From assembly GCA_030698405.1 (NCBI GenBank), contig JAUYMU010000020.1, positions 1-39,545 on the forward strand: 39,545 nucleotides of DNA. The letters run 5' to 3'. The translations under genes were made by a program, and so were the position numbers. Below, piece after piece: positions 24,736 to 35,363 of this stretch (its first letter is position 1; each line of letters begins with the position of its first letter). The notes beneath the pieces are model-generated. The model made no database searches and was not told the origin of the DNA. It saw only the letters and a list, made by a program, of their open reading frames with translations. The stretch is from Bacteroidota bacterium (GTDB lineage Bacteria; Bacteroidota; Bacteroidia; Bacteroidales; Prolixibacteraceae).

Positions 24736-24766
24736 CTCAGAGCGCGACTTTAAGTCGCACCCTGAG
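24736..24766. repeat. REP-like palindrome next to the CRISPR trailer end
   Basis: Imperfect palindrome with outer CTCAG/CTGAG and inner GCGCGACTT/AAGTCGC words, the same family as the copies around the transposase gene at 28824-29510. It ends two bases before the terminal CRISPR repeat. Confidence 0.8.
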
Positions 24767-24768
24767 TG

Positions 24769-26189
24769 GGTTCAATCCACGCGACCCTTGCGAGGCGCGA
24801 CTGTGGCGAAGTGATTTTTTAATTGTTGATTGATTGTTTCAATCCACGCGCCCCTTGCGAGGCGCGACAAAAAAAATCCTGAAAACCCACATAAAAACGT
24901 GTTTCAATCCACGCGCCCCTTGCGAGGCGCGACCAGCGTTGGAAAAGGAATTGACCAACTGGTTGGTTTCAATCCACGCGCCCCTTGCGAGGCGCGACGT
25001 TTTTCATTTGCGATTTCACGAATGATAAGGATGTTTCAATCCACGCGCCCCTTGCGAGGCGCGACTCTCAAGCGTGTTCTCTTTTGCTTGTACTTTCAGT
25101 TTCAATCCACGCGCCCCTTGCGAGGCGCGACCCCGCACTTTCGTCATCGATTCGACTCACTACGAGTTTCAATCCACGCGCCCCTTGCGAGGCGCGACTT
25201 CAATAAAAATTACACCGACATCACTTCGCGCGTTTCAATCCACGCGCCCCTTGCGAGGCGCGACTCAAAGAAGCCAACAAGAAGCCTGAAGGACTGGTTT
25301 CAATCCACGCGCCCCTTGCGAGGCGCGACCAAGATATTTCGTATAATTGTTGTATAAATATAGTTTCAATCCACGCGCCCCTTGCGAGGCGCGACGTTCC
25401 GGCTTCGCCAACCTTTGGCAAAAAAATTGTTTCAATCCACGCGCCCCTTGCGAGGCGCGACCCCATAGTTTTAGAAATAGCGGCCATTGATCCAGTTTCA
25501 ATCCACGCGCCCCTTGCGAGGCGCGACCAAACGGCTTAATTAACGTTACTCAAAAGCTTGTTTCAATCCACGCGCCCCTTGCGAGGCGCGACTTCCATTA
25601 AAATAGCCTCTTTGTCGTTTAAGGGTTTCAATCCACGCGCCCCTTGCGAGGCGCGACCAAAACGTTTGTACCGTATATCAATTTAGGAATTGTTTCAATC
25701 CACGCGCCCCTTGCGAGGCGCGACAATGATATTTATATCAATCGTGACGGCTTCTGTGTTTCAATCCACGCGCCCCTTGCGAGGCGCGACCTGAAATTGA
25801 AAATCTGGTAAACGAAGATTTAATAAGTTTCAATCCACGCGCCCCTTGCGAGGCGCGACAAATATCAGTTTGTTTTATACGGTGGCCGTTTTGTTTCAAT
25901 CCACGCGCCCCTTGCGAGGCGCGACCAAAAACGGTGTTAATGTCCTCTTTTTCAAACGGTTTCAATCCACGCGCCCCTTGCGAGGCGCGACTTCTCAGCT
26001 TTTCAATCAATCACAATTGAAGTTGTTTCAATCCACGCGCCCCTTGCGAGGCGCGACTAAAAAAAGGCGATTTCTTCAAATTTGCAGGAAGTTTCAATCC
26101 ACGCGCCCCTTGCGAGGCGCGACTTGGCTTCTGGGAATATTGGCGGTGCTATCGGTGTTTCAATCCACGCGCCCCTTGCGAGGCGCGAC
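24769..26189 (-). CRISPR. Type I-C CRISPR array, 22 repeats and 21 spacers
   Basis: The 33-bp repeat begins GTTTCAATCC and ends GAGGCGCGAC on the plus strand. Copies start at 24836, 24901, 24966, 25033, 25099, 25166, 25232, 25297, 25363, 25429, 25495, 25560, 25625, 25692, 25758, 25827, 25893, 25959, 26025, 26091 and 26157, all apparently identical. A copy with two mismatches starts at 24769. Spacers are 32-36 nt. The crRNA strand is the minus strand, because type I-C repeats end ATTGAAAC in the transcribed sense. The leader is therefore beyond 26189 and the degenerate repeat is at the old end. ORFs that cross the array are artefacts of the repeat. I found no spacer matching elsewhere in the window by eye. 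Confidence 0.98.
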
Positions 26190-26358: not shown

Positions 26359-26649
26359 CTAAATAATGAGGGTTCCTTCAGGATCGTAACTTTCTTTATG
26401 CCCCACATGTTCAATTCTGTTTTTATAATTATTTCCCAAAAAATAATACCTCAAGCTGTCGGCATTGGGATCAATGATAGATTCGAGCCTATGCTTTAAT
26501 TCTGCAAATTTCGCAGGATCAACTAAACATTCGAATACTGAATTTTGAACCCGTTGGCCAAAGTTAACACATTGTTTGGCAATTTGCCTTAGTCGTTTTC
26601 GACCAGCCGGAGTCATCGTCTCCACATCGTAGGTGATTAATACCATCAT
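26359..26649 (-). CDS. cas2: CRISPR-associated protein Cas2
   Basis: The 96-aa protein has the ferredoxin-like Cas2 start MMVLITYDVET with the conserved Asp after the first strand. It continues with GRKRLRQIAKQCVNFGQRVQNSVFEC and DSLRYYFLGNNY, typical of type I-C. With Cas1 it forms the spacer integrase. It is the last cas gene, 10 nt after cas1 and next to the leader. Confidence 0.96.
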   Translation of the reverse strand: MMVLITYDVETMTPAGRKRLRQIAKQCVNFGQRVQNSVFECLVDPAKFAELKHRLESIIDPNADSLRYYFLGNNYKNRIEHVGHKESYDPEGTLII

Positions 26650-26659
26650 AAGCTTCGAA

Positions 26660-27691
26660 TTATTTATTTACAAAAACCGGATAATTATCAATATCTCCTC
26701 TGACAAACCGTGCCATCAGCATAGCCTGGGCATACGGTAATAATCCAACCGGAATTGAAATTTGCAAATATGGATGCATTATTTCTTCCTGTTTGCGCTT
26801 TTGCCATGCGGTTAATACTTCTTTGCGCGTTTCATCAGTCATTAAAACTCCACCTGCTTCATTTCCTTTAAAACCGCGTTTATTGACTTGTTTCCGGTTA
26901 ATAAGTGATAATACGAGCCTGTCGGCCAGGTATGGGCGGAATTCTTCCATCATATCGAGCGCCAAACTTGAACGACCAGGCCGATCAGTATGAAAAAAAC
27001 CAACACATGGGTCGAGGCCAACGCTTTCCAATGCTGCCCTTACTTCATGCATCAGGAGCGTATAAACAAAAGATAGTAAAGCATTTACATTGTCTTTGGG
27101 CGGACGGCGATTTCTGCCCTTCATGAAAAAATCATCCTTTTGAGTAAGAATCAGTTGATCAAAGGTACCAAAATAACCCTGAGCTGCCTCACCTTCAACG
27201 CCACGTAAAACTTCAGCCGAAGATGTTCGCAGGACCTGCTTTTGCTTCAATGCCAGCAACTGAATGGCTGATTCCAATTCAGGCAGATTTTTACCTGAAT
27301 TTTGGTCACGAAACGAACGCTGCAAAACGGTTCGGCAATTGGCAAGTTTGCCGGCAACGAACAGTTTGGCCAGTTCAACAGATTGTTCAGCATCGTCGGC
27401 CATTCGGTATTGTTTGCGCCTCAACAATACATTTCCGGATACAGCTCCCTCAACCCTGCATAAAAAACGACCATGTTCGGTCAGGAAGCTAAGCGCAACA
27501 TTACGTTCGGCACATAAATGCATTAAAGCGGGACTTGCACCCATATAGCCAAAACATACAATGCCTTCGATATTGTGAATGGGCATCCTGAATTTTTCTT
27601 TTTCATCCAGCCGGATCACCACATTTTCACCATCTCTGGCCAGATACGATTCTGGCGTTGTCACATAAAGTGTATTCAATAGTTTTCTCAT
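26660..27691 (-). CDS. cas1: CRISPR-associated endonuclease Cas1 (type I-C)
   Basis: The 343-aa protein is the integrase subunit. The N-terminal domain (MRKLLNTLYVTTPESYLARDG, IEGIVCFGYMGASPALM) and the helical catalytic domain (NALLSFVYTLLMHEVRAALESVGLDP, GFFHTDRPGRSSLALDMMEEFRPYLAD) are complete. The latter contains the conserved Glu, His and Asp positions of Cas1. It starts 9 nt after the cas4 stop codon and ends 10 nt before cas2. Confidence 0.97.
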   Translation of the reverse strand: MRKLLNTLYVTTPESYLARDGENVVIRLDEKEKFRMPIHNIEGIVCFGYMGASPALMHLCAERNVALSFLTEHGRFLCRVEGAVSGNVLLRRKQYRMADDAEQSVELAKLFVAGKLANCRTVLQRSFRDQNSGKNLPELESAIQLLALKQKQVLRTSSAEVLRGVEGEAAQGYFGTFDQLILTQKDDFFMKGRNRRPPKDNVNALLSFVYTLLMHEVRAALESVGLDPCVGFFHTDRPGRSSLALDMMEEFRPYLADRLVLSLINRKQVNKRGFKGNEAGGVLMTDETRKEVLTAWQKRKQEEIMHPYLQISIPVGLLPYAQAMLMARFVRGDIDNYPVFVNK

Positions 27692-27700
27692 ATTAATTCA

Positions 27701-28420
27701 TTAAGTCAAATCCGGGCGCGACTTAAAGTCGCACTCGGAGTCTGTTTCAAGTGCATTTTTCAAATAATCGTTTACCTTGCGAGGGACACTAAAAGCCTTT
27801 GGGTTACAGATTTCAACCAATGAACACGCCTTGCAATGTGTTTTATAAATTGCCAAAGGGGTATTACCGGTTTCAAAAAGTTCGTGCATTCGTATGGCAT
27901 AAGCTTCAACCTTATTTCGGAGTTCCTGACTAAAAATAACCTCATGTCGGTGGCGGGTTTCTCCATAAAACAGATAGCCTTTGCCAATATTTAATTTAAA
28001 ATCAAGTTCCAAATTGTACATTTCTTCGAGGCAAATGGCCTGTGCACAAAGTTGTACCTCATCCCGCTCATCGGGTTTGGGCTTTCCGCGTTTATATTCA
28101 ACAGGTAACGGGCGCCAATTGCCCGGATAGCCTTCCATTCCAATCCCTTGCCCGACTTCCGACCGGATAAACTCTACCACATCGGCCACGCCATACAAAC
28201 CTAAGCGGTACGAAACCATTGAAACAGATCGCAGCGTAATGATATTTCCACGAACTTCGCATGCAAAAGGATCGTCAACCCGCTCGTGCATGTGGGTTCC
28301 CTCAACGGTGCGCATATTTTCGGCCCATTGCTGCTCGATGTGTATCAAAGCCCATTGCCGCTCACAAAAAGCAAAATGCTGAATGCCGGAGAGCATTAAA
28401 AGATCGTCGTCGGTGTACAT
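27701..28420 (-). CDS. cas4: CRISPR-associated exonuclease Cas4 with REP-encoded C-terminus
   Basis: The 239-aa protein trims and orients prespacers during adaptation. It carries the four iron-sulfur cysteines Cys19 (FAFCERQWA), Cys196, Cys199 and Cys205 (HCKACSLVEIC). The PD-(D/E)XK nuclease core contains PVEYKRGKPK and DEVQLCAQAICLEEMY. The last dozen residues (from about Ser228, SECDFKSRPDLT) are encoded by a REP palindrome at 27711-27739 and are not part of the usual Cas4 fold. The insertion therefore changed the C-terminus without harming the core. It is separated from cas7 upstream by 1.3 kb of inserted DNA, so it may need its own promoter or read-through. Confidence 0.94.
   Translation of the reverse strand: MYTDDDLLMLSGIQHFAFCERQWALIHIEQQWAENMRTVEGTHMHERVDDPFACEVRGNIITLRSVSMVSYRLGLYGVADVVEFIRSEVGQGIGMEGYPGNWRPLPVEYKRGKPKPDERDEVQLCAQAICLEEMYNLELDFKLNIGKGYLFYGETRHRHEVIFSQELRNKVEAYAIRMHELFETGNTPLAIYKTHCKACSLVEICNPKAFSVPRKVNDYLKNALETDSECDFKSRPDLT
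27711..27739. repeat. REP-like palindrome inside the 3' end of cas4
   Basis: Outer TCCGGGCGCGACTT and its partner AAGTCGCACTCGGA form an imperfect palindrome. It lies within the coding region and supplies codons of about residues 228-237 of Cas4, shortly before the stop. Confidence 0.85.
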
Positions 28421-28438
28421 TTTTTTTTGTGATTTGAT

Positions 28439-28446
28439 TACTTTTG
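28439..28446 (+). promoter_or_regulatory. Probable -7 box TACTTTTG for the hicB remnant
   Basis: TACTTTTG matches TAnnTTTG and lies 16 nt before the ATG at 28463. It faces away from cas4, whose start codon is at 28420. Confidence 0.4.
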
Positions 28447-28462
28447 CTTTAAATCAACTGAT

Positions 28463-28627
28463 ATGAAAGAGATCGTTTTTATAGTTGAAGAATCACAAGA
28501 CGGGGGCTATTTTGCCCGTGCTGTAAATCATTCCATTTTTACCCAGGGCGATACCATTCCGGAATTAAAATCGATGATTAGCGATGCTGTTCGCTGCCAT
28601 TTTGTTGAAGGCGAGATGCCTGCCTAA
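28463..28627 (+). pseudogene. Truncated HicB-type antitoxin gene
   Basis: The 54-aa frame reads MKEIVFIVEESQDGGYFARA, then SIFTQGDTIPELKSMISDAVRCHF, the N-terminal fold of a short HicB-family antitoxin. Full-length relatives continue for roughly 15 more residues, which are missing here. The frame stops at 28625-28627 and runs directly into a fragment of a HicA gene. It is on the opposite strand to the cas genes and lies in the 1.3-kb insertion between cas7 and cas4. Confidence 0.7.
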
Positions 28628-28734
28628 CCATTCCCAACCACGATCCTTTAAAAATAGGAACCCTAAATGCCATACTTACCGAAGTGGCACACCATTTAGG
28701 TGTTTCCAAACAGGAACTTATCGAGAGATTATAA
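28627..28734 (+). pseudogene. 3' fragment of a HicA-type toxin gene
   Basis: Without a start codon, this frame reads TIPNHDPLKIGTLNAILTEV, then AHHLGVSKQELIERL and a stop at 28732-28734. NHD-x-LKIGTL-x-x-IL is the C-terminal signature of HicA mRNA interferases. The N-terminal half with the catalytic His is gone. Together with the hicB fragment this indicates an internal deletion in a hicB-hicA operon. A half-REP begins one base after its stop. Confidence 0.65.
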
Positions 28735-28815
28735 AGTCCGGGCGCGACTTATAAGCAAGCAACCAGTCCGAGTACGACTTCAAGTCCGGGCGCGACTCAA
28801 AGTCGCACTCGGACT
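28735..28815. repeat. REP cluster downstream of the transposase gene
   Basis: Contains two half-elements (28735-28750 and 28765-28780) and one full palindrome (28783-28815, ends AGTCCGGGCG and its partner CTCGGACT). The full element ends 8 nt from the stop codon of the RAYT gene and may act as its transcript-end hairpin. Confidence 0.8.
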
Positions 28816-28823
28816 TATCCCCG

Positions 28824-29510
28824 TTAAAAAATCTTAAGCCCAAATTCCTGAATTTTGTTTCTGTTAATGAGATTTCCTTTTCTTACTCCAATGAAATCCG
28901 AATAGGAAGAAAACTCCCAATCTTCGGGTCTTTTAACCAAGCCATCTTTCACAGGATTGTACAGAATGTAATTGAAGCAAACATTCGGGTATTCAATATC
29001 AGGTTCATTAACTGTAAATTCTGTAATTCCCATGTTTGTAATCCAACCGGGAGACATTCCATCTATTTCAGTCAGACAAACAGCTTTTGTTTCGGAACGG
29101 AAAAGCGATCCGCTCCAATTTTGCTGTATATTAATAGCACGCGTGTAGGAAGCAAGCATAATTCCGATGGATTTATTGAAACTCATCCATTCATTATTCC
29201 GGGTTCGACTTTCCATTTTACTCCGGGCGCGACTTTGAGTCGCACTCGGAGTTTCAGCAATTGCCTCCAAACTACTCCGGGCGCGACTTTGAGTCGCACT
29301 CGGAGTAAGCTCAACCTCTAACTGGTTAACATGCACCATCAGGTGAAAATGGTTGGGCATTAAACACCAGGCCAGAATATCGGCAAATGGCAATACATGC
29401 TTATGAATTTTTCGAAGGAAAAAGAGATAATTTTCCCGTTCAACAAAAATCTTCCGCCGATTATTGCCTTGGTTATAAATGTGATACAAATGTCCAGAAT
29501 CGAATTGCAT
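28824..29510 (-). CDS. REP-associated tyrosine transposase (RAYT, Y1/HUH family)
   Basis: The 228-aa protein is a single-domain Y1 transposase of the IS200-like/REP-associated group. The HUH metal-binding motif is His54-Phe-His56 (CLMPNHFHLMVHV). The likely catalytic tyrosine is Tyr122 (ASYTRAIN). The C-terminal YILYNPVKDGLVKRPEDWEF and SSYSDF are typical of RAYTs. Residues 69-79 and 87-97 are the same 11-residue peptide, TPSATQSRARS, each encoded by an identical 33-bp REP palindrome inserted in frame. They lie in a variable loop between motif and tyrosine helix, so activity may survive. REP copies flank the gene on both sides, as is usual for RAYTs. It lies between cas7 and cas4, on the same strand. 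Confidence 0.88.
   Translation of the reverse strand: MQFDSGHLYHIYNQGNNRRKIFVERENYLFFLRKIHKHVLPFADILAWCLMPNHFHLMVHVNQLEVELTPSATQSRARSSLEAIAETPSATQSRARSKMESRTRNNEWMSFNKSIGIMLASYTRAINIQQNWSGSLFRSETKAVCLTEIDGMSPGWITNMGITEFTVNEPDIEYPNVCFNYILYNPVKDGLVKRPEDWEFSSYSDFIGVRKGNLINRNKIQEFGLKIF
29196..29211. repeat. Half-REP inside the RAYT gene
   Basis: ATTCCGGGTTCGACTT resembles the left arm of the full REP copies that follow (ACTCCGGGCGCGACTT). It encodes SRTRN, residues 101-105 of the transposase. Confidence 0.5.
29220..29252. repeat. Full REP palindrome inside the RAYT gene, copy 1
   Basis: A 33-bp palindrome beginning ACTCCGGGCGCGACTT on the plus strand. Read on the minus strand it encodes residues 87-97, TPSATQSRARS. 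Confidence 0.92.
29274..29306. repeat. Full REP palindrome inside the RAYT gene, copy 2
   Basis: Identical over 33 bp to the copy at 29220-29252 and in the same frame; encodes residues 69-79. The starts of the two copies are 54 bp (18 codons) apart, and the DNA between them is not repeated. Confidence 0.92.
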
Positions 29511-29549
29511 AAAGTGGGTTATTTGTGGTTGTATTTTCTATCCGAATCT

Positions 29550-29705
29550 ATTCCGAGTCCGACTTTGAGTCGGGCCCGGAATTACTGCATCTAGCTTATA
29601 TCAATTATTCTGAGCGCGACTTAAAACCAGATTTTGAATTGTTATTCGGCATATATTCCGAGCGCGACTTGGAGTCGCACCCGGAATAAAAAGTCGCATC
29701 CGGGA
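29550..29705. repeat. REP cluster between cas7 and the RAYT gene
   Basis: Holds full palindromes at 29550-29582 and 29655-29687 and half-elements at 29607-29622 and 29690-29705. Outer ends are ATTCCGAG and CCGGAAT, and cores contain GACTT-GAGTCG-like words. The cluster ends just beyond the cas7 stop codon and lies upstream of the RAYT start at 29510. The 199-nt region has no other gene. Confidence 0.85.
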
Positions 29706-29709
29706 AAAC

Positions 29710-30573
29710 TTACAGCATTTCAATTAACTCGACACCTTGAAGAATAGATTTTTCTATTATTACGGTATAATCACCCCATGAACGTGGCAGATCTGCATTT
29801 TTTGTAATCTGTACTTTATCGAATAGTTCTCCAGAACGTGCAGAACCTAAATGATTATTGTGTTTGAAAATAATCAGTTTCCTAGGGTTCATCTCACCAC
29901 GGGCAGCTGCACGATCATGTTCAAAAGCATTGAGTAATGCTTCCCACAATAAACTTAAATCTTCTTCTGAAAAACCTGATTTTTGAGCATCTACAGCCGA
30001 CACAAAACCATGCATTCTATAAAGCGCATAAGGAACAGTTGATTTGCGGCCAAAAGTGGAAGCATTTTCACGTTTTTCTTGGGCTTTGGCCTCCTTTTCG
30101 GTAGTTACAACACAACGAGTGATCGAGTGTTCTGCCTGATAAATACGGTCTTCAGAGCGAGAAAACGTAAATTGAACCGGTCCACGAACTGTCCCGGCAC
30201 CTTTTTCACCAACACTTAGAACAGCACCAAACGCTCGGATATCGAAATAATCTTTACAAAGGTTGACCTGTCTTTCTGGAATAGTACTTCCAGTTGTTTT
30301 ATCAATTAGAGGAGCAAGAATATTCCCCTGCTTTATGAATATATCAAACCCAGGTTCAGTAAGATATTTGCCATCAGCTCCTATTTTTAATTTTTTGAGT
30401 TGTATATAATTTCTTACTTTTCGTTTGATACAAACGTCAGTAATCAGACCTTCCTGATTTTCAGCATCAACTCTAGGCAGGTTTGCCTGATCCGGATCAC
30501 CATTTGGATTACCGTCTTTCACATCGAATAAAAACACAAAATCGTAACGATTTTTAATTGAATTGGTTGTCAT
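29710..30573 (-). CDS. cas7: Type I-C Cascade backbone protein Cas7 (Csd2)
   Basis: The 287-aa protein forms the filament along the crRNA. Family segments are NRYDFVFLFDVKDGNPNGDPD at the N-terminus, GLITDVCIKRKVRNYI, RAFGAVLSVGEKGAGTVRGPVQ, and QAEHSITRCVV. The final part contains NAFEHDRAAARGEM and RKLIIFKHNN. It starts 3 nt after cas8c, with AGAGGA upstream as ribosome binding site. A REP cluster begins 4 nt past its stop codon. Confidence 0.96.
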   Translation of the reverse strand: MTTNSIKNRYDFVFLFDVKDGNPNGDPDQANLPRVDAENQEGLITDVCIKRKVRNYIQLKKLKIGADGKYLTEPGFDIFIKQGNILAPLIDKTTGSTIPERQVNLCKDYFDIRAFGAVLSVGEKGAGTVRGPVQFTFSRSEDRIYQAEHSITRCVVTTEKEAKAQEKRENASTFGRKSTVPYALYRMHGFVSAVDAQKSGFSEEDLSLLWEALLNAFEHDRAAARGEMNPRKLIIFKHNNHLGSARSGELFDKVQITKNADLPRSWGDYTVIIEKSILQGVELIEML

Positions 30574-30576
30574 AAT

Positions 30577-30990
30577 TTAGTCCTCTTTAGTTTCTATTAT
30601 TGATTGTAATTCTTTGTTGGTTTTTGCATTATCGTAATCCTGTTGTTTCTGATGGTAATAGCCAAGCGCAAACTGCCCTTGCTCTTCAAGTGAGAAAAGA
30701 GCTGGAAAACCATTTAAAAAGCTACACAGTTCCTGTAATTGTCTATCAAGCAATACCGCTAGTCCCGGCTTTTCGTGTTTCAATTTCGAAATGTGATTCT
30801 GCGACAATTTCATAAGGCGTCCAAAAGCTGTAGCCGGATTTGTCGAAGCCGAAGTAAAAAAGCGTTCGCGTATTCCCGCATTAAGGTCTTTCCCTTGCGC
30901 AGCCCGTTGAATATTTTCCATTACTGCGAAAATTTTTCCGCAAACAATTGCCGGACTTTTGTCGTTCGGATCATTTTGTTCTTTAATCAT
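30577..30990 (-). CDS. cas11c: Probable Cas11c small subunit from an internal start in cas8c
   Basis: Met492 of Cas8c is preceded by AAAAGGAGGAACT (AGGAGGAACT at 30991-31000), a near-perfect Shine-Dalgarno sequence only 5 nt from the ATG. This is unusual in Bacteroidota, where such sites are weak. Translation from here gives 137 aa, mostly helical (begins MIKEQNDPNDKS). The size and position match the Cas11c that is known to be made from an internal start in type I-C cas8c genes. No separate small-subunit gene exists in the operon. Confidence 0.75.
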   Translation of the reverse strand: MIKEQNDPNDKSPAIVCGKIFAVMENIQRAAQGKDLNAGIRERFFTSASTNPATAFGRLMKLSQNHISKLKHEKPGLAVLLDRQLQELCSFLNGFPALFSLEEQGQFALGYYHQKQQDYDNAKTNKELQSIIETKED

Positions 30991-32463
30991 AGTTCCTCCT
31001 TTTAAATTATTTCTGTTTAAAACAAATCTTATTAATGCAGCCCGTTCTGGCGTTATTGTTTCTTTTGATTGTCCATCTTCTGAGTTTTCCACAAAACGGA
31101 TTCTTTTTAATACTGTCGTAAGAATCCATAAAGGTGGAACTGAATTTTTTAGTGCCGCATCCCATAATTGTGTAGCAATGCGGGAGTTTGTTGGGTCGTT
31201 GCTGGATTTTGTATTATGCCCAGCCTTAGCCAATGCATACAATGGAACATACCTTATATCACCATAGGCTCTTATTGCTATATCATGAAACCATTTCGCA
31301 ATATTTTTCCGGTAATCATCCAAACTAATCTCAATCCAATCGCGGATAGCAATTCGGGCAGCAGCGCCAGAAAGTGTGCAAGAATAAAACTGATTGGTTT
31401 TGATGTATTTTGCTCCATTTACTTTTGCATTTGCAACCGAATCAATCAAGTTTGTAACCTGACCAGCATCAGGATTATCAAGCAGATATATTTCATCTGT
31501 GGATTCTTCTTCTTTCGTCCAATAAATCATGCCTGTATCAGAACCGAAGTTTTTGCGGTTGGAATAGACAAATAAGCTTTTAGCCTTTCCTTTCTTATCT
31601 TCTAATAATTTTTCACTTCCATTGGCTAACAGCCAATTTAATCCTTCCACATAGTTTTTAGCACAATTTGTACAAACAGAAGAGTTATCGTTTCCTTTCA
31701 AATTATAGGATTCGAAAGCCTTTTCATTATACGAAACCAAAGCACAACCCGCAGATTGTCCATCTGGCACACGTTTGATCAGACCATGTGGTTTATCCAA
31801 TACCGGAAAATCTGACTTGCCGCAAACAGAGCAAAACTTCTTTTGGCCAACCAGTTGTTGTGTTTGTTCTTTTTCAAACCGCTCAATTATTGCTTCATAA
31901 ACATCTTGATGCTCATGCAGGCGTTGGTCTTTCACTCGAAAAGCAATATTCCCAGCCCTTTCTTTTTCCCCAACTTGTTTTTTAAATTCATTTACAGCCT
32001 TATACAACCCATTTGTCCTGTTACTATTATAAAAACAAATGACTGGCATTAGGATTTCAAGTTCTTTATAATCAAGAAGTTTATCACGAAACAAATGATG
32101 CTTTGACGATGTGGCTTTTATCAAATTGCCTAACCCTTTATGCTCAATACTGTAATTTTTAAATCTCATATTCAAAATACAATTAGGTTGATGTCGGATT
32201 CCAACTTTACGTTTTTCTAATTCATTCGCATCAATTTGTAATCCTGAATAATTCAACACTTCCTCAGCTTTATCAAGTAATAACCGGGCTTTCCCTTTTT
32301 TCGAATTTAATGCTTCTGCTTTTCTGCTTATCTTTTCAATAACTAAAAATGAATCGAATGAACCATCTTCTTTAATAACCAAATCAATTGAAATTGGCTC
32401 GTCCTTCAAAGCATCGTGTCCGGTTCTGATTCGCTTGCCAAATTCTGCTAATTCTTTAATCAT
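30577..32463 (-). CDS. cas8c: Type I-C Cascade large subunit Cas8c (Csd1)
   Basis: The 628-aa protein is the large subunit that recognises the PAM and recruits Cas3. Two CxxC pairs, Cys211/Cys214 (FCSVCGKSDFP) and Cys264/Cys267 (VCTNCAKNY), probably bind zinc. Other family segments are RIATQLWDAALKNSVPPLWIL and GRLMKLSQNHISKLKHEKPG. The start codon overlaps the cas5c stop in ATGA. The last 137 codons are likely also translated alone as Cas11c from an internal start at 30990. Confidence 0.95.
   Translation of the reverse strand: MIKELAEFGKRIRTGHDALKDEPISIDLVIKEDGSFDSFLVIEKISRKAEALNSKKGKARLLLDKAEEVLNYSGLQIDANELEKRKVGIRHQPNCILNMRFKNYSIEHKGLGNLIKATSSKHHLFRDKLLDYKELEILMPVICFYNSNRTNGLYKAVNEFKKQVGEKERAGNIAFRVKDQRLHEHQDVYEAIIERFEKEQTQQLVGQKKFCSVCGKSDFPVLDKPHGLIKRVPDGQSAGCALVSYNEKAFESYNLKGNDNSSVCTNCAKNYVEGLNWLLANGSEKLLEDKKGKAKSLFVYSNRKNFGSDTGMIYWTKEEESTDEIYLLDNPDAGQVTNLIDSVANAKVNGAKYIKTNQFYSCTLSGAAARIAIRDWIEISLDDYRKNIAKWFHDIAIRAYGDIRYVPLYALAKAGHNTKSSNDPTNSRIATQLWDAALKNSVPPLWILTTVLKRIRFVENSEDGQSKETITPERAALIRFVLNRNNLKGGTMIKEQNDPNDKSPAIVCGKIFAVMENIQRAAQGKDLNAGIRERFFTSASTNPATAFGRLMKLSQNHISKLKHEKPGLAVLLDRQLQELCSFLNGFPALFSLEEQGQFALGYYHQKQQDYDNAKTNKELQSIIETKED
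30991..31000 (-). promoter_or_regulatory. Internal Shine-Dalgarno sequence in cas8c
   Basis: AGGAGGAACT directly before the internal ATG at 30988-30990. It decides the start of the probable Cas11c. Confidence 0.75.
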
Positions 32464-33173
32464 CTGGCAGCCTCCTGTTCTTCGTTTTGGTTAAACCCAT
32501 AAATAGCAGAAGATATTTCGCTGTCCATATCTGGCTGTAAGTGCGACGAATGCATCATTTTTTCATTTTCAGCATTGGAACATTCAAGTATTCCATTATC
32601 AATTTTCACATCGTAAAAGAAGACAGGCGAGGGTTTGCCTTTCACATCGTAAAAGATATCGAACAGCATACTTCCAATAGGAATTATTTCCTGAATTGGT
32701 TGATCATTTCCATCTGGTTCAAGAAATTCGGCAGCAAACTCGCGTGTACCCAAAAAAGGCCGCCTCCAGCATTGGCCTTTCTTTACACGCCGCTTAAACA
32801 TTTCAGCATATTTCTTCACTGGATTTTTAGGATCAAATTCCTTCTGGAAAACAGAGGCTTCAATGATGTATGCCACATCTTTTAATATAATACTGTTGCG
32901 TTGCGCCCGTTTTTCTTCAATTATAATGGGCGTTTTGCCTTGTTTCGCGTTAATTTCATTTCGCTTTACTGAGAAAAATTTAACCGGATTAAGTACAATT
33001 ATCCGATGCACCCACCATTGAAATTCAGGCTTCCAAAGAATTGAATCAAGAACTCCTCTTGCCGCAGATGGTGTCATGCATGGGTAGGTCATTCGCTCAA
33101 CTTTTAAATCAGGACGGGTAAAACAAGCAAAGTCACCTGTTACTTTTACCCTAACAATTTCGTTGTCAATCAT
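32460..33173 (-). CDS. cas5c: Type I-C Cas5c (Cas5d), crRNA-processing subunit
   Basis: The 237-aa protein is the RAMP subunit that, in type I-C, cuts the precursor crRNA and holds its 5' handle; no cas6 is present or needed. Family segments are VKVTGDFACFTRPDLKVERM, YPCMTPSAARGVLDSILWKP, and IIVLNPVKFFSVKRNEI. Central residues include RKGQ-type basic stretches (RRVKKGQCWRRPFLGTREF). The stop codon overlaps the cas8c start by 4 nt, which suggests translational coupling. It starts 21 nt after cas3. Confidence 0.95.
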   Translation of the reverse strand: MIDNEIVRVKVTGDFACFTRPDLKVERMTYPCMTPSAARGVLDSILWKPEFQWWVHRIIVLNPVKFFSVKRNEINAKQGKTPIIIEEKRAQRNSIILKDVAYIIEASVFQKEFDPKNPVKKYAEMFKRRVKKGQCWRRPFLGTREFAAEFLEPDGNDQPIQEIIPIGSMLFDIFYDVKGKPSPVFFYDVKIDNGILECSNAENEKMMHSSHLQPDMDSEISSAIYGFNQNEEQEAAR

Positions 33174-33194: not shown

Positions 33195-35363
33195 TTAAAA
33201 AATAAGCATTGGATTATCAGTTGAAATCCCATATTTATCGTTGTATCCTCCATACCATTTCCAATAACCTTGTGGTTCCTTGCCTAGCTTTCCAATGTTA
33301 TCTTTCATGAAATTTTCATACACCTGAACCGAGAATTGCTGCATTGCCCGGTAATCGTCGCGCGACAAAAATGGCTTATAACGAATCCGGTCATACAAAT
33401 CAGAACTTTCGTCGCAGAGTATAAATATGGGTGTTGTTTTGTTTTCAATCAGATGGTAAGCTCCTGCAACTGTTTTAAAATTGAATCCAAGTCGAGCCTT
33501 CTCTATATTCTTGATATCCTCTGGTATAAAAAGCCGAAATACCTTCCGGTAATATTCTCCAAAGAAATCATGTTCATAAAGCAGAGCCTCATTATCCTTA
33601 TACAATTTATTGGCAAATTCGGCCAACGAACGATATTGCTTACTTGGAGCACCGGAATCTTCAATTGCAAAAATGAAAACCTTACCTGCTTCTCGCATTT
33701 TCCCTTCGCGATTGCATCGTCCGGCAGACTGGATGATAGATTCCAAAGGTGCAATCTCCCTGAAAACACATGGAAAATCAAAATCGACACCTGCTTCAAT
33801 CAATTGGGTAGAGGAAACTAAAATCCGTTCCTTCTTGGTAAGAAAATCCCTGATCTTTCCAATTACTTCTTTTCGGTGAGCAGGAAACATGCTGGTGGAT
33901 AAATGAAAAGTCTGATAATCTGAATTATCCTTGATGGCATTAAAGAAAAGTAGTGCTTGTTTCTTAGTATTGAAAATACATAAGGTTGAATCGCCTTGCT
34001 CAAATACTTTACCGGAGAGCTCTTCAATTGAAACTGATTGATAATCATTCACGGCAAGGTATTTTACCCTTCTCGTCGCATCAAAAACTTCTTTGGGATT
34101 TTCGACCAACGATTGGATGTTTTCAATACCATTGAACCCTTCACTCTTCTCAAAAGCAGGTTGTGTCGCTGTACAAAAGAGGAACGAAGTCCCCATCACT
34201 TTCTGGACGTTTTTCAACATGGAAAGTGTTGGTAAAACCAGTTCCTTTGGCAAAGTTTGAACCTCGTCGAAGATAACCACCGATTGTGCGATATTATGCA
34301 CTTTCCTGCATCTTGAAGGCTTATGTCCAAACAACGATTCAAAAAACTGGACCGATGTGGTAACAATGATCGGATAATCCCAGTTCTCAGTTGCCAATCT
34401 TCTGGTATGTGATTTATCCTGAATAGATTCATCCGAAATTTCTTTATTGTCTTCCTCTTCTTCGTTAAAGTTTGAATGATGCTCCAGTACCCATTCTTCC
34501 CCAAAAATGCGTTTCAGTTCTTTCGCCGTTTGATCTATAATACTGATAAAAGGAAGTACAATTATGATTCTCTTTAAGTTATTGTGCTTTGTGTGGTGAA
34601 GCGCCCAACTTACAGATGCCAATGTTTTTCCCATTCCGGTAGGTAAGGTCATCGAATAAAAACCAGTATCAAATTGAGCTTTTGAAATAGCATAACTGCG
34701 GACTTTATTTCGTAATGTATTAATATAGCCATCTTTGCTCTTCCCCATTAACTCACCTTCTAATCTCTCCAACAAATACGCTGCATCAAATACTTTTGTA
34801 TTTCTCTTTTCTGAAATGGCACTATTAAAATGACTCTCTGTATCTAACCAGTCAGCATCAGTCAAAGCACTAAACAACATTCGGATAAAAAGTTCTTTGT
34901 CTGTGCCTCTTAAACCAGTATCTGAATAAATTAAATTGGTTTCCTCTATCGGGTTTTCCTTGAAGAATTCAGTTCTAATTGAATTGAACTGTGTATTTCC
35001 AGAAACGTCAAACTCATACAAATCGGTTATTAAATCTCCTTTATCAGGCAATCCTTTATGATGGCCATCAATTGCAAATGCCGCTTCAACTTGGCTAAAT
35101 TCTTTACACAAACCTGCACCCCAACTGGCATGTGGCACACTTCCTCTTCTTCCTCCTTCTCTCAGGTATTTTTGAAAGGCAGGCTGATATTTTCCGAAAT
35201 CATGCAAAAGTCCGGTTGTTCTAAATATACTCTGATAATCATTATTACCCGCAAACGCCGTCATCAATTTCGCAGTTCCGCTCAAATGCTCATTCAGAAT
35301 ATGCACTTCATTTTTCTCATTTTCTGAATGAGCCAGGTATTTATCAACTTCAATTGTATCCAT
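33195..35363 (-). CDS. cas3: Cas3 nuclease-helicase
   Basis: The 722-aa protein unwinds and degrades target DNA after Cascade binding. The N-terminal HD nuclease has His26, His54-Asp55 (LLHDFGKYQ), the PHASWGAG histidine and IDGHHKGLPD. The helicase has Walker A TLPTGMGKT (about residue 240), the DEAD-type motif IIFDEVQTLPKE (about 364), FCTATQP (motif III), and QSAGRCNREG (motif VI). All catalytic motifs look intact. It is the first gene of the operon; the promoter should lie in 35364-35638. Confidence 0.96.
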   Translation of the reverse strand: MDTIEVDKYLAHSENEKNEVHILNEHLSGTAKLMTAFAGNNDYQSIFRTTGLLHDFGKYQPAFQKYLREGGRRGSVPHASWGAGLCKEFSQVEAAFAIDGHHKGLPDKGDLITDLYEFDVSGNTQFNSIRTEFFKENPIEETNLIYSDTGLRGTDKELFIRMLFSALTDADWLDTESHFNSAISEKRNTKVFDAAYLLERLEGELMGKSKDGYINTLRNKVRSYAISKAQFDTGFYSMTLPTGMGKTLASVSWALHHTKHNNLKRIIIVLPFISIIDQTAKELKRIFGEEWVLEHHSNFNEEEEDNKEISDESIQDKSHTRRLATENWDYPIIVTTSVQFFESLFGHKPSRCRKVHNIAQSVVIFDEVQTLPKELVLPTLSMLKNVQKVMGTSFLFCTATQPAFEKSEGFNGIENIQSLVENPKEVFDATRRVKYLAVNDYQSVSIEELSGKVFEQGDSTLCIFNTKKQALLFFNAIKDNSDYQTFHLSTSMFPAHRKEVIGKIRDFLTKKERILVSSTQLIEAGVDFDFPCVFREIAPLESIIQSAGRCNREGKMREAGKVFIFAIEDSGAPSKQYRSLAEFANKLYKDNEALLYEHDFFGEYYRKVFRLFIPEDIKNIEKARLGFNFKTVAGAYHLIENKTTPIFILCDESSDLYDRIRYKPFLSRDDYRAMQQFSVQVYENFMKDNIGKLGKEPQGYWKWYGGYNDKYGISTDNPMLIF

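Follow-up and report, generated by a model that had tools for sequence, protein, structure and literature searches.

What benefit their hosts draw from REP-associated tyrosine transposases (RAYTs, or TnpAREP), the Y1 enzymes associated with repetitive extragenic palindromes (REPs), is a long-standing question. TnpAREP subclass 2.4, described from Bacteroidetes and Cyanobacteria, carries in-frame REPs between the HuH and Y motifs (Quentin et al., 2018, PMC6006769), and the cognate REPs of RAYTs usually exceed 100 copies per genome (PMC2817692). CRISPR effectors can be exchanged in situ, with replacement of the effector cassette beside an adaptation module that is retained (PMC6452270, PMC12669027), and in the E. 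coli O157-antigen clusters REPs coincide with similarity change points at an exchanged gene cluster, the authors speculating that REPs help the exchange (PMC3158064). Here we analyse a stretch of 39,545 nt ("the window") from a bacterium of the Prolixibacteraceae (GCA_030698405.1, contig JAUYMU010000020.1; genome G000, 5.49 Mb), in which a type I-C CRISPR-Cas locus has a RAYT gene with REPs in the 1289 nt that separate cas7 from cas4 (28421-29709).

Like subclass 2.4, the window RAYT has in-frame REPs, in two copies; it differs from that description by its location between cas7 and cas4 (the word CRISPR is absent from the main text of PMC6006769) and by the scarcity of its REPs, of which the genome has 25, with 16 located at two RAYT loci. 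In-frame REPs were therefore discarded as a novelty. As in the in situ exchanges, effector cassettes differ beside a retained adaptation module; unlike in those cases, the joint here carries REPs and a RAYT, and at one site homology stops at a REP; the accessible text of the two papers names no repeat or enzyme. The O157-antigen case concerns a different organism and cluster, and the accessible text mentions no RAYT. In a literature search at title level, with subscription literature mostly outside its scope, no publication on a RAYT between cas7 and cas4 or on REPs at CRISPR module joints was among the matches listed. The RAYT type is known and the slot is ordinary; no published account of a RAYT/REP unit located at the effector/adaptation joint, with REPs bordering exchanged segments, came up in this search. 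The accessible accounts of in-place effector swaps establish that they occur, not how the cuts come at the module border; the related genomes studied here show the locus present, absent, exchanged or decayed, with rare hairpin repeats marking several borders, which makes the question testable and offers a possible use for RAYTs.

We lean tentatively, without giving it quite an even chance, towards reading the interval as the joint between the effector cassette (cas3-cas5-cas8-cas7) and the adaptation module (cas4-cas1-cas2 and the array), where cargo collects and across which effector cassettes are exchanged, the REPs of the RAYT/REP unit lodged there having served as exchange joints. Read in the cas direction, the gap opens with two full REPs accompanied by half REPs; the RAYT follows, then a further REP, again with half REPs, and finally a hicBA remnant in antisense orientation. 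The RAYT and the REPs of the window are listed below (REPs by a REP pattern scan, the half REPs at 28737, 28767 and 29609 by a half-site pattern; no strand is assigned to either).

29658-29684: REP, 25 nt past the cas7 stop codon
29609 and 29690: half REPs on the cas7 side
29553-29579: REP between cas7 and the RAYT
28824-29510, minus strand (cas strand): RAYT, a TnpAREP-type HUH/Y1 protein of 228 aa with the HUH motif NHFH (Y1_Tnp, NF047646 and 4er8 matches)
29277-29303: REP within the RAYT frame
29223-29249: second REP within the RAYT frame
28786-28812: REP past the RAYT stop codon
28737-28778: half REPs (at 28737 and 28767) between the RAYT and the hicA remnant
27712-27738: REP in the 3' end of cas4
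24738-24764: REP directly past the degenerate last CRISPR repeat

The first-pass annotation of this DNA had described the 1289-nt gap, the Y1 transposase gene on the cas strand and the hicBA remnant, all of which we confirm. Its count of at least three full and several half REPs outside the gene also stands; it had overlooked the two in the RAYT frame and those in cas4 and at the array end.

The slot position of the RAYT is recurrent and not due to chance. Among 140 genomes of the family, mostly drafts and including that of the window, eight carry a cas4 of the window kind, and four have a RAYT between cas7 and cas4: G000, G005 and G006 from one genus and G084 from another. These are the four RAYTs at 78-100% identity in the family, all of them in the slot, on the cas strand and with an open frame. 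This answers the question, raised in the first-pass annotation, whether the RAYT sits in the same place in several strains; relatives without a RAYT in the slot, one half of what it considered refuting, do exist, and random positions, the other half, were not seen for this type (at least 78% identity). In the remaining four family loci, the slot is occupied by hicBA (G025 and G030), by a REP and a hicB remnant (G004), or by a RhuM gene directly before cas4, where the contig ends short of cas7 (G117). The next RAYTs, at 67-71% identity (G019, contig C81 of the window's genome, and G125), are located away from cas genes; two of them (C81, L085:844-1697; G019, L145:3829-4682) adjoin a RES/Xre toxin-antitoxin pair, identified by Pfam for C81. 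A distant RAYT-like frame of G117 (L144:915-1562, 29% identity to the window RAYT, no Pfam match at E 1e-3) lies several kb past cas2.

At the RAYT, or at the same slot of relatives, three divergent I-C cassettes are found, shared by the window and G004, by G005 and G030, and by G006 and G084 (subtype assigned by NCBIfam for the window, G005 and G006, the others being grouped by DNA likeness). The G006 effector was also considered as type I-B from its low cas7 identity, and NCBIfam shows I-C. The identities of cas7 and cas4 are 32 and 86% for G000-G006, 53 and 81% for G000-G005, 92 and 64% for G006-G084, and 36 and 85% for G084-G302. At the DNA level, G006 and G084 are 79% identical from within cas3 through the RAYT and 66% identical in the adaptation module. 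Comparing 14 genomes (seven of the eight family genomes with this cas4, G117 having no cas7 sequence, and seven of the 14 order genomes described below; the cas7 of G005 and G360 are pieces of 202 aa), the two identities differ by at least 15 points in 56 of 91 pairs. Where cas7 is simply the better conserved of the two, the difference may reflect rate, and the argument for exchange therefore rests on the crossed cases; these comparisons indicate that effector cassettes are exchanged across the cas7-cas4 joint.

The REPs were also compared across chromosomal sites (flanking genes named by Pfam). Beside a GntR gene, G004, G006 and G005 each have a REP followed by cas3, and another REP after the array. 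Between G004 and G006, the GntR-side flank is shared at 85% identity and the homology stops at G004:4104 / L139:2293, the end of the REP; the effectors differ, and homology resumes at cas4, continuing through the array and the far REP into the right flank. The G005 locus is bracketed by REP-containing direct repeats of 43 bp, 42 of them identical and including a few non-hairpin bases, with cas3 next to the left copy. At the same site, between the same two flanks, the window's genome has a single REP-containing 43-bp copy (38 and 39 positions identical), followed by a nitroreductase gene, and no CRISPR locus. In G008 and G014 the GntR gene lies beside a GH16 gene, in G012, G022, G009 and G018 beside a nitroreductase gene, with no REP by scan in either group. 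A further relic may be the hicBA-like DNA (72% to G025) that G002 (L212) has upstream of its GntR gene, the site of the CRISPR locus in relatives.

The window's own CRISPR locus lies between citrate synthase and GH92 genes, a site unoccupied in G018 and G019. Downstream of the citrate synthase gene, G009 (L237) retains a relic, left by a deleted CRISPR locus and consisting of a REP, a piece of CRISPR repeat, a cas4 start, hicBA and 73 nt similar to the G006 cas7 (84%). This relic of a cassette other than that of the window suggests a second in-place exchange, although no REP marks the cas3 end at this site. As a candidate REP-bounded mobile island, which would have a repeat at either end and an empty counterpart site, the locus shows both in the comparison of G005 with the window's genome; the window's own site has a REP at the array end alone.

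REPs are rare in these genomes and frequent at these loci. The half-site pattern (at most one mismatch) has 15 matches in the window, whereas shuffled sequences give an expectation of 0.16. Folded as DNA, four single strands taken from three of the REPs form hairpins of -12 to -13.5 kcal/mol (z -4.7 to -6.0). A genome-wide scan (at most three mismatches; no match to the reversed control pattern in any of the seven genomes) retrieved 25 REPs in the window's genome, 7 in G004, 12 in G005, 10 in G006, 9 in G084, 7 in G019 and none in G030, in which no match to the window RAYT was found either (E 1e-66). The CRISPR locus holds 7 of the 25 in the window's genome, 3 of 7 in G004, 8 of 12 in G005, 7 of 10 in G006 and 7 of 9 in G084. 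In G004, without a RAYT of the slot group at E 1e-66, one of the three precedes cas3, one follows cas7 and one follows the array; at random, three of seven would fall in this 8.6-kb locus with a probability of about 2e-7. This figure assumes an even spread and therefore does not distinguish REPs spread locally by a RAYT from REPs that take part in exchange. With 25 sites in 5.49 Mb, the window RAYT falls, by abundance alone, outside the 2010 description (PMC2817692), and so it is a RAYT of a REP-poor kind.

In the mechanism that we propose, the RAYT would act on its hairpin repeats in single-stranded form and would place new REPs wherever its locus has a tolerated gap. Such gaps are few: the region upstream of cas3, the cas7-cas4 interval, the border of cas4 with cas1 and the far array end. 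These similar REPs of 27-33 bp could then serve as homology joints, through which the effector cassette or the whole CRISPR locus might be replaced, gained or lost. The activity of the RAYT, its role as the source of these REPs, and the REPs as the cause of the exchanges are what we infer. A stronger version, in which RAYT and REPs would together form a CRISPR-Cas exchange and mobility system, with REP-bounded cassettes and whole loci excised, inserted and swapped at REPs and the RAYT as the joint-making enzyme, seems unlikely to us.

Nearly as likely as the exchange-joint reading is that the RAYT/REP unit is a pure passenger, which would have entered a tolerant slot, travel with the CRISPR locus by horizontal transfer and scatter REPs locally, effector exchange being ordinary homologous recombination independent of REPs, and REPs surviving only at the module borders, the gaps that a tight operon offers. 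Several observations favour this alternative or otherwise weigh against REPs as exchange joints. In 22 of the 56 discordant pairs, neither member is a RAYT genome, and G025 and G030 have different effectors (cas7 55%, cas4 83%), both with hicBA and without a REP core; exchange can therefore occur without REPs. The discordance may also partly reflect faster change in cas4. Nine of the 25 REPs of the window's genome surround the RAYT paralogue on C81 (16 of the 25 lie at two RAYT loci), and hence local spread alone could put REPs in gaps. The break between G004 and G006 represents a single event, and the intergenic stretch in which it falls is short; the two repeats bracketing the G005 locus are on different contigs, the cas3/GH92 joint of the window has no REP by scan, and the REP at the window's array end is embedded about 140 nt deep in the flank homology to G019. 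We also considered a crossover within the RAYT and rejected it, since the quartet splits gave 15, 11 and 5 site patterns with no clean switch. RAYTs elsewhere are also open (32 of 33 non-cas copies), and two pairs of non-cas RAYTs gave ratios of non-synonymous to synonymous divergence (dN/dS) of 0.36 and 0.09; constraint is thus not special to the cas copies. Nevertheless, a passenger alone leaves unexplained the homology break at the REP end, the 43-bp direct repeats of G005 and the single-REP unoccupied site. The exchange-joint and passenger readings differ in their breakpoint predictions.

A further point in favour of a passenger is the variety of unrelated genes found at the cas7-cas4 junction, a cargo slot that is ordinary for such loci. 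We surveyed six junctions in 85 loci, comprising the window, 79 loci found with the window cas7 and five more family loci (L006 stands for G004 and L055 for G025); as the 79 were found by likeness to the window cas7, the survey covers kin of the window locus. Gaps of at least 300 nt were present at cas7-cas4 in 50 of the 74 loci where this gap was measurable, against 9 of 363 over the other five junctions together (cas3-cas5 2/73, cas5-cas8 0/76, cas8-cas7 0/78, cas4-cas1 6/70, cas1-cas2 1/66). The premise of the first-pass annotation, that I-C operons run without a gap, fails for this kin. The 50 long gaps, with representatives named by Pfam, hold DinD-like (11), RhuM (9), 23S-IVP-like (8), RAYT (4), Hic (4), PIN (3), YhcG (2), ParE (1) and IS200-like (1) genes, and seven are unclassified. 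Slot examples of RhuM, DinD-like and YhcG match the PADLOC candidate models PDC-S05, PDC-S13 and PDC-S02, respectively, and genes of these kinds fill the same slot in other bacteria; the 23S-IVP-like example has no PADLOC match, and the window RAYT matched no PADLOC model at E 1e-3. Among 393 genomes of the order, besides the window's own, 14 have a cas4 of the window kind, with RhuM in the slot in four, hic genes or pieces in three and nothing recognised in seven (gap of at most 90 nt in six, about 760 nt in one); no RAYT was found in the slot in these 14 relatives outside the family. Across many phyla, the I-C cas7-cas4 junction holds RhuM, DinD-like, YhcG, 23S-IVP-like, HicBA, PIN, ParE and Fic genes. 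A Bacteroidetes contig outside the family encodes a distant Y1 protein directly after cas7 (L054:6999-7861), followed by an antisense frame of 71 aa, HicA-like by eye.

It is improbable that the unit has a regulatory role, in which REP hairpins after cas7 and before cas4 would split the effector from the adaptation mRNA by attenuation or mRNA stabilisation, perhaps bound by the RAYT. The hairpins are stable and a REP is located 12-43 nt after the cas7 stop in five genomes (the window's, G004, G005, G006 and G084), and REPs are named as mRNA elements in the accessible text of PMC3733652 and PMC3158064. Against this, a scan of 28300-29800 found no promoter-like site on the cas strand, with totals at or under chance; the sole terminator-like site on this strand in the same scan lies within the RAYT frame and does not coincide with a REP, and the gene order is the same in REP-free relatives.

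The divergence of the slot RAYTs bears on the suggestion, made in the first-pass annotation, that the enzyme was domesticated by the adaptation module. Their pairwise dN/dS of 0.12-0.17 (NG86, four genomes) shows that the protein is kept. Synonymous divergence among the four is 0.56-0.83; between G000 and G006 it is alike for RAYT (0.67), cas4 (0.59) and cas1 (0.89), and in the other pairs cas4 and cas1 range from 1.17 to beyond measure, unlike the RAYT, agreement with cas4-cas1 thus being limited to this pair. A RAYT processing single-stranded prespacer ends with Cas4-Cas1-Cas2 is therefore very improbable, and was rejected as leading reading, since despite the same place and strand beside cas4 in four genomes, the purifying selection and the similar divergence of the G000-G006 pair, it is absent from the slot in four of the eight family loci with this cas4 and was not found in any of the 14 order relatives, its divergence does not track cas1 or cas4 in the other pairs, and it keeps its REPs and in-frame REP hinge like the non-cas RAYTs. 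The link observed is with the joint between the modules, not with the chemistry of cas4-cas1-cas2.

The slot RAYTs grouped with support 92/88 in a tree of 36 of the 37 RAYTs (G043_C7, reduced to 18 aa by a stop, was left out). The best tree thus gives the four one origin, but support fell to 36/60 in an 11-row tree of a chosen subset with the REP-coded hinge removed. A single origin of the four is weakly supported, which weighs against the exchange-joint reading.

Regarding the protein itself, the window RAYT has the HUH/Y1 core related to IS200-type TnpA and is flanked by REPs, two on one side (29553-29579 and 29658-29684) and one on the other (28786-28812). It scores below the cut-offs of Pfam Y1_Tnp (PF01797; E 3e-4, 21.3 bits, cut-off 23) and NCBIfam REP_Tyr_transpos (NF047646; E 1e-15, 57.7 bits, cut-off 80), and matches the TnpArep structure 4er8 at E 7e-4. 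We take these cut-offs as score thresholds and not as traits that define a RAYT; the profile matches stop close to the REP-coded hinge, a possible cause of the low scores. The two in-frame REPs separate the HUH motif from the presumed catalytic tyrosine and encode peptides such as TPSATQSRARS. The motif YIxNNP of subclass 2.4 reads YILYNP in the window, YIHNNP in G006 and YILNNP in the C81 and C1046 relatives. Overall, the unit in the slot looks like TnpAREP subclass 2.4. An in-frame palindrome at the same hinge, varying in sequence by lineage, is present in 25 of 36 Bacteroidales RAYTs.

The subtype I-C set of the window is complete, and every cas gene scores above its NCBIfam cut-off. On the minus strand, cas3-cas5-cas8-cas7 are followed by cas4-cas1-cas2 and the CRISPR array. 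These genes, the array and the hicBA remnant are as follows.

33195-35363, minus: cas3 (Pfam Cas3_HD and Cas3-like_C_2; TIGR01587 and TIGR01596 above cut-off)
32460-33173, minus: cas5c (TIGR01876, 135.7 bits, cut-off 85)
30577-32463, minus: cas8c (csd1; TIGR01863, 276.8 bits, cut-off 218.65)
29710-30573, minus: cas7c (csd2), last effector gene (TIGR02589, 293 bits, cut-off 182.25)
28630-28734, plus: broken hicA, 3' end (PF07927, E 0.04 on 34 aa, below cut-off; aligned to the G025 hicA region)
28464-28628, plus: truncated hicB start, 54 aa (no Pfam match alone; aligned to the hicB region of G025 and G030)
27701-28420, minus: cas4 (TIGR00372, 124.9 bits, cut-off 65)
26660-27691, minus: cas1 (TIGR03640, 507 bits, cut-off 385)
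26359-26649, minus: cas2 (TIGR01573, 69 bits, cut-off 24.5)
24767-26189 (limits approximate), no strand assigned: CRISPR array, 21 repeats ending GATTGAAAC and a degenerate last repeat

In the remnant, the hicB start runs into the hicA 3' end, and the alignment to G025 skips 168 nt. The cas genes, which had been called intact, are indeed all open; the C-terminus of cas4 consists of about 12 REP-encoded residues (by-eye comparison with G004, G006, G025 and G030), and its reading frame is therefore open yet altered. Similarly, the RAYT reading frame of G006 is lengthened by a REP (L139:9470-9532). The cas7 of G005 (L138:7794-8912, minus strand) has an in-frame insertion of about 80 residues relative to that of G030.
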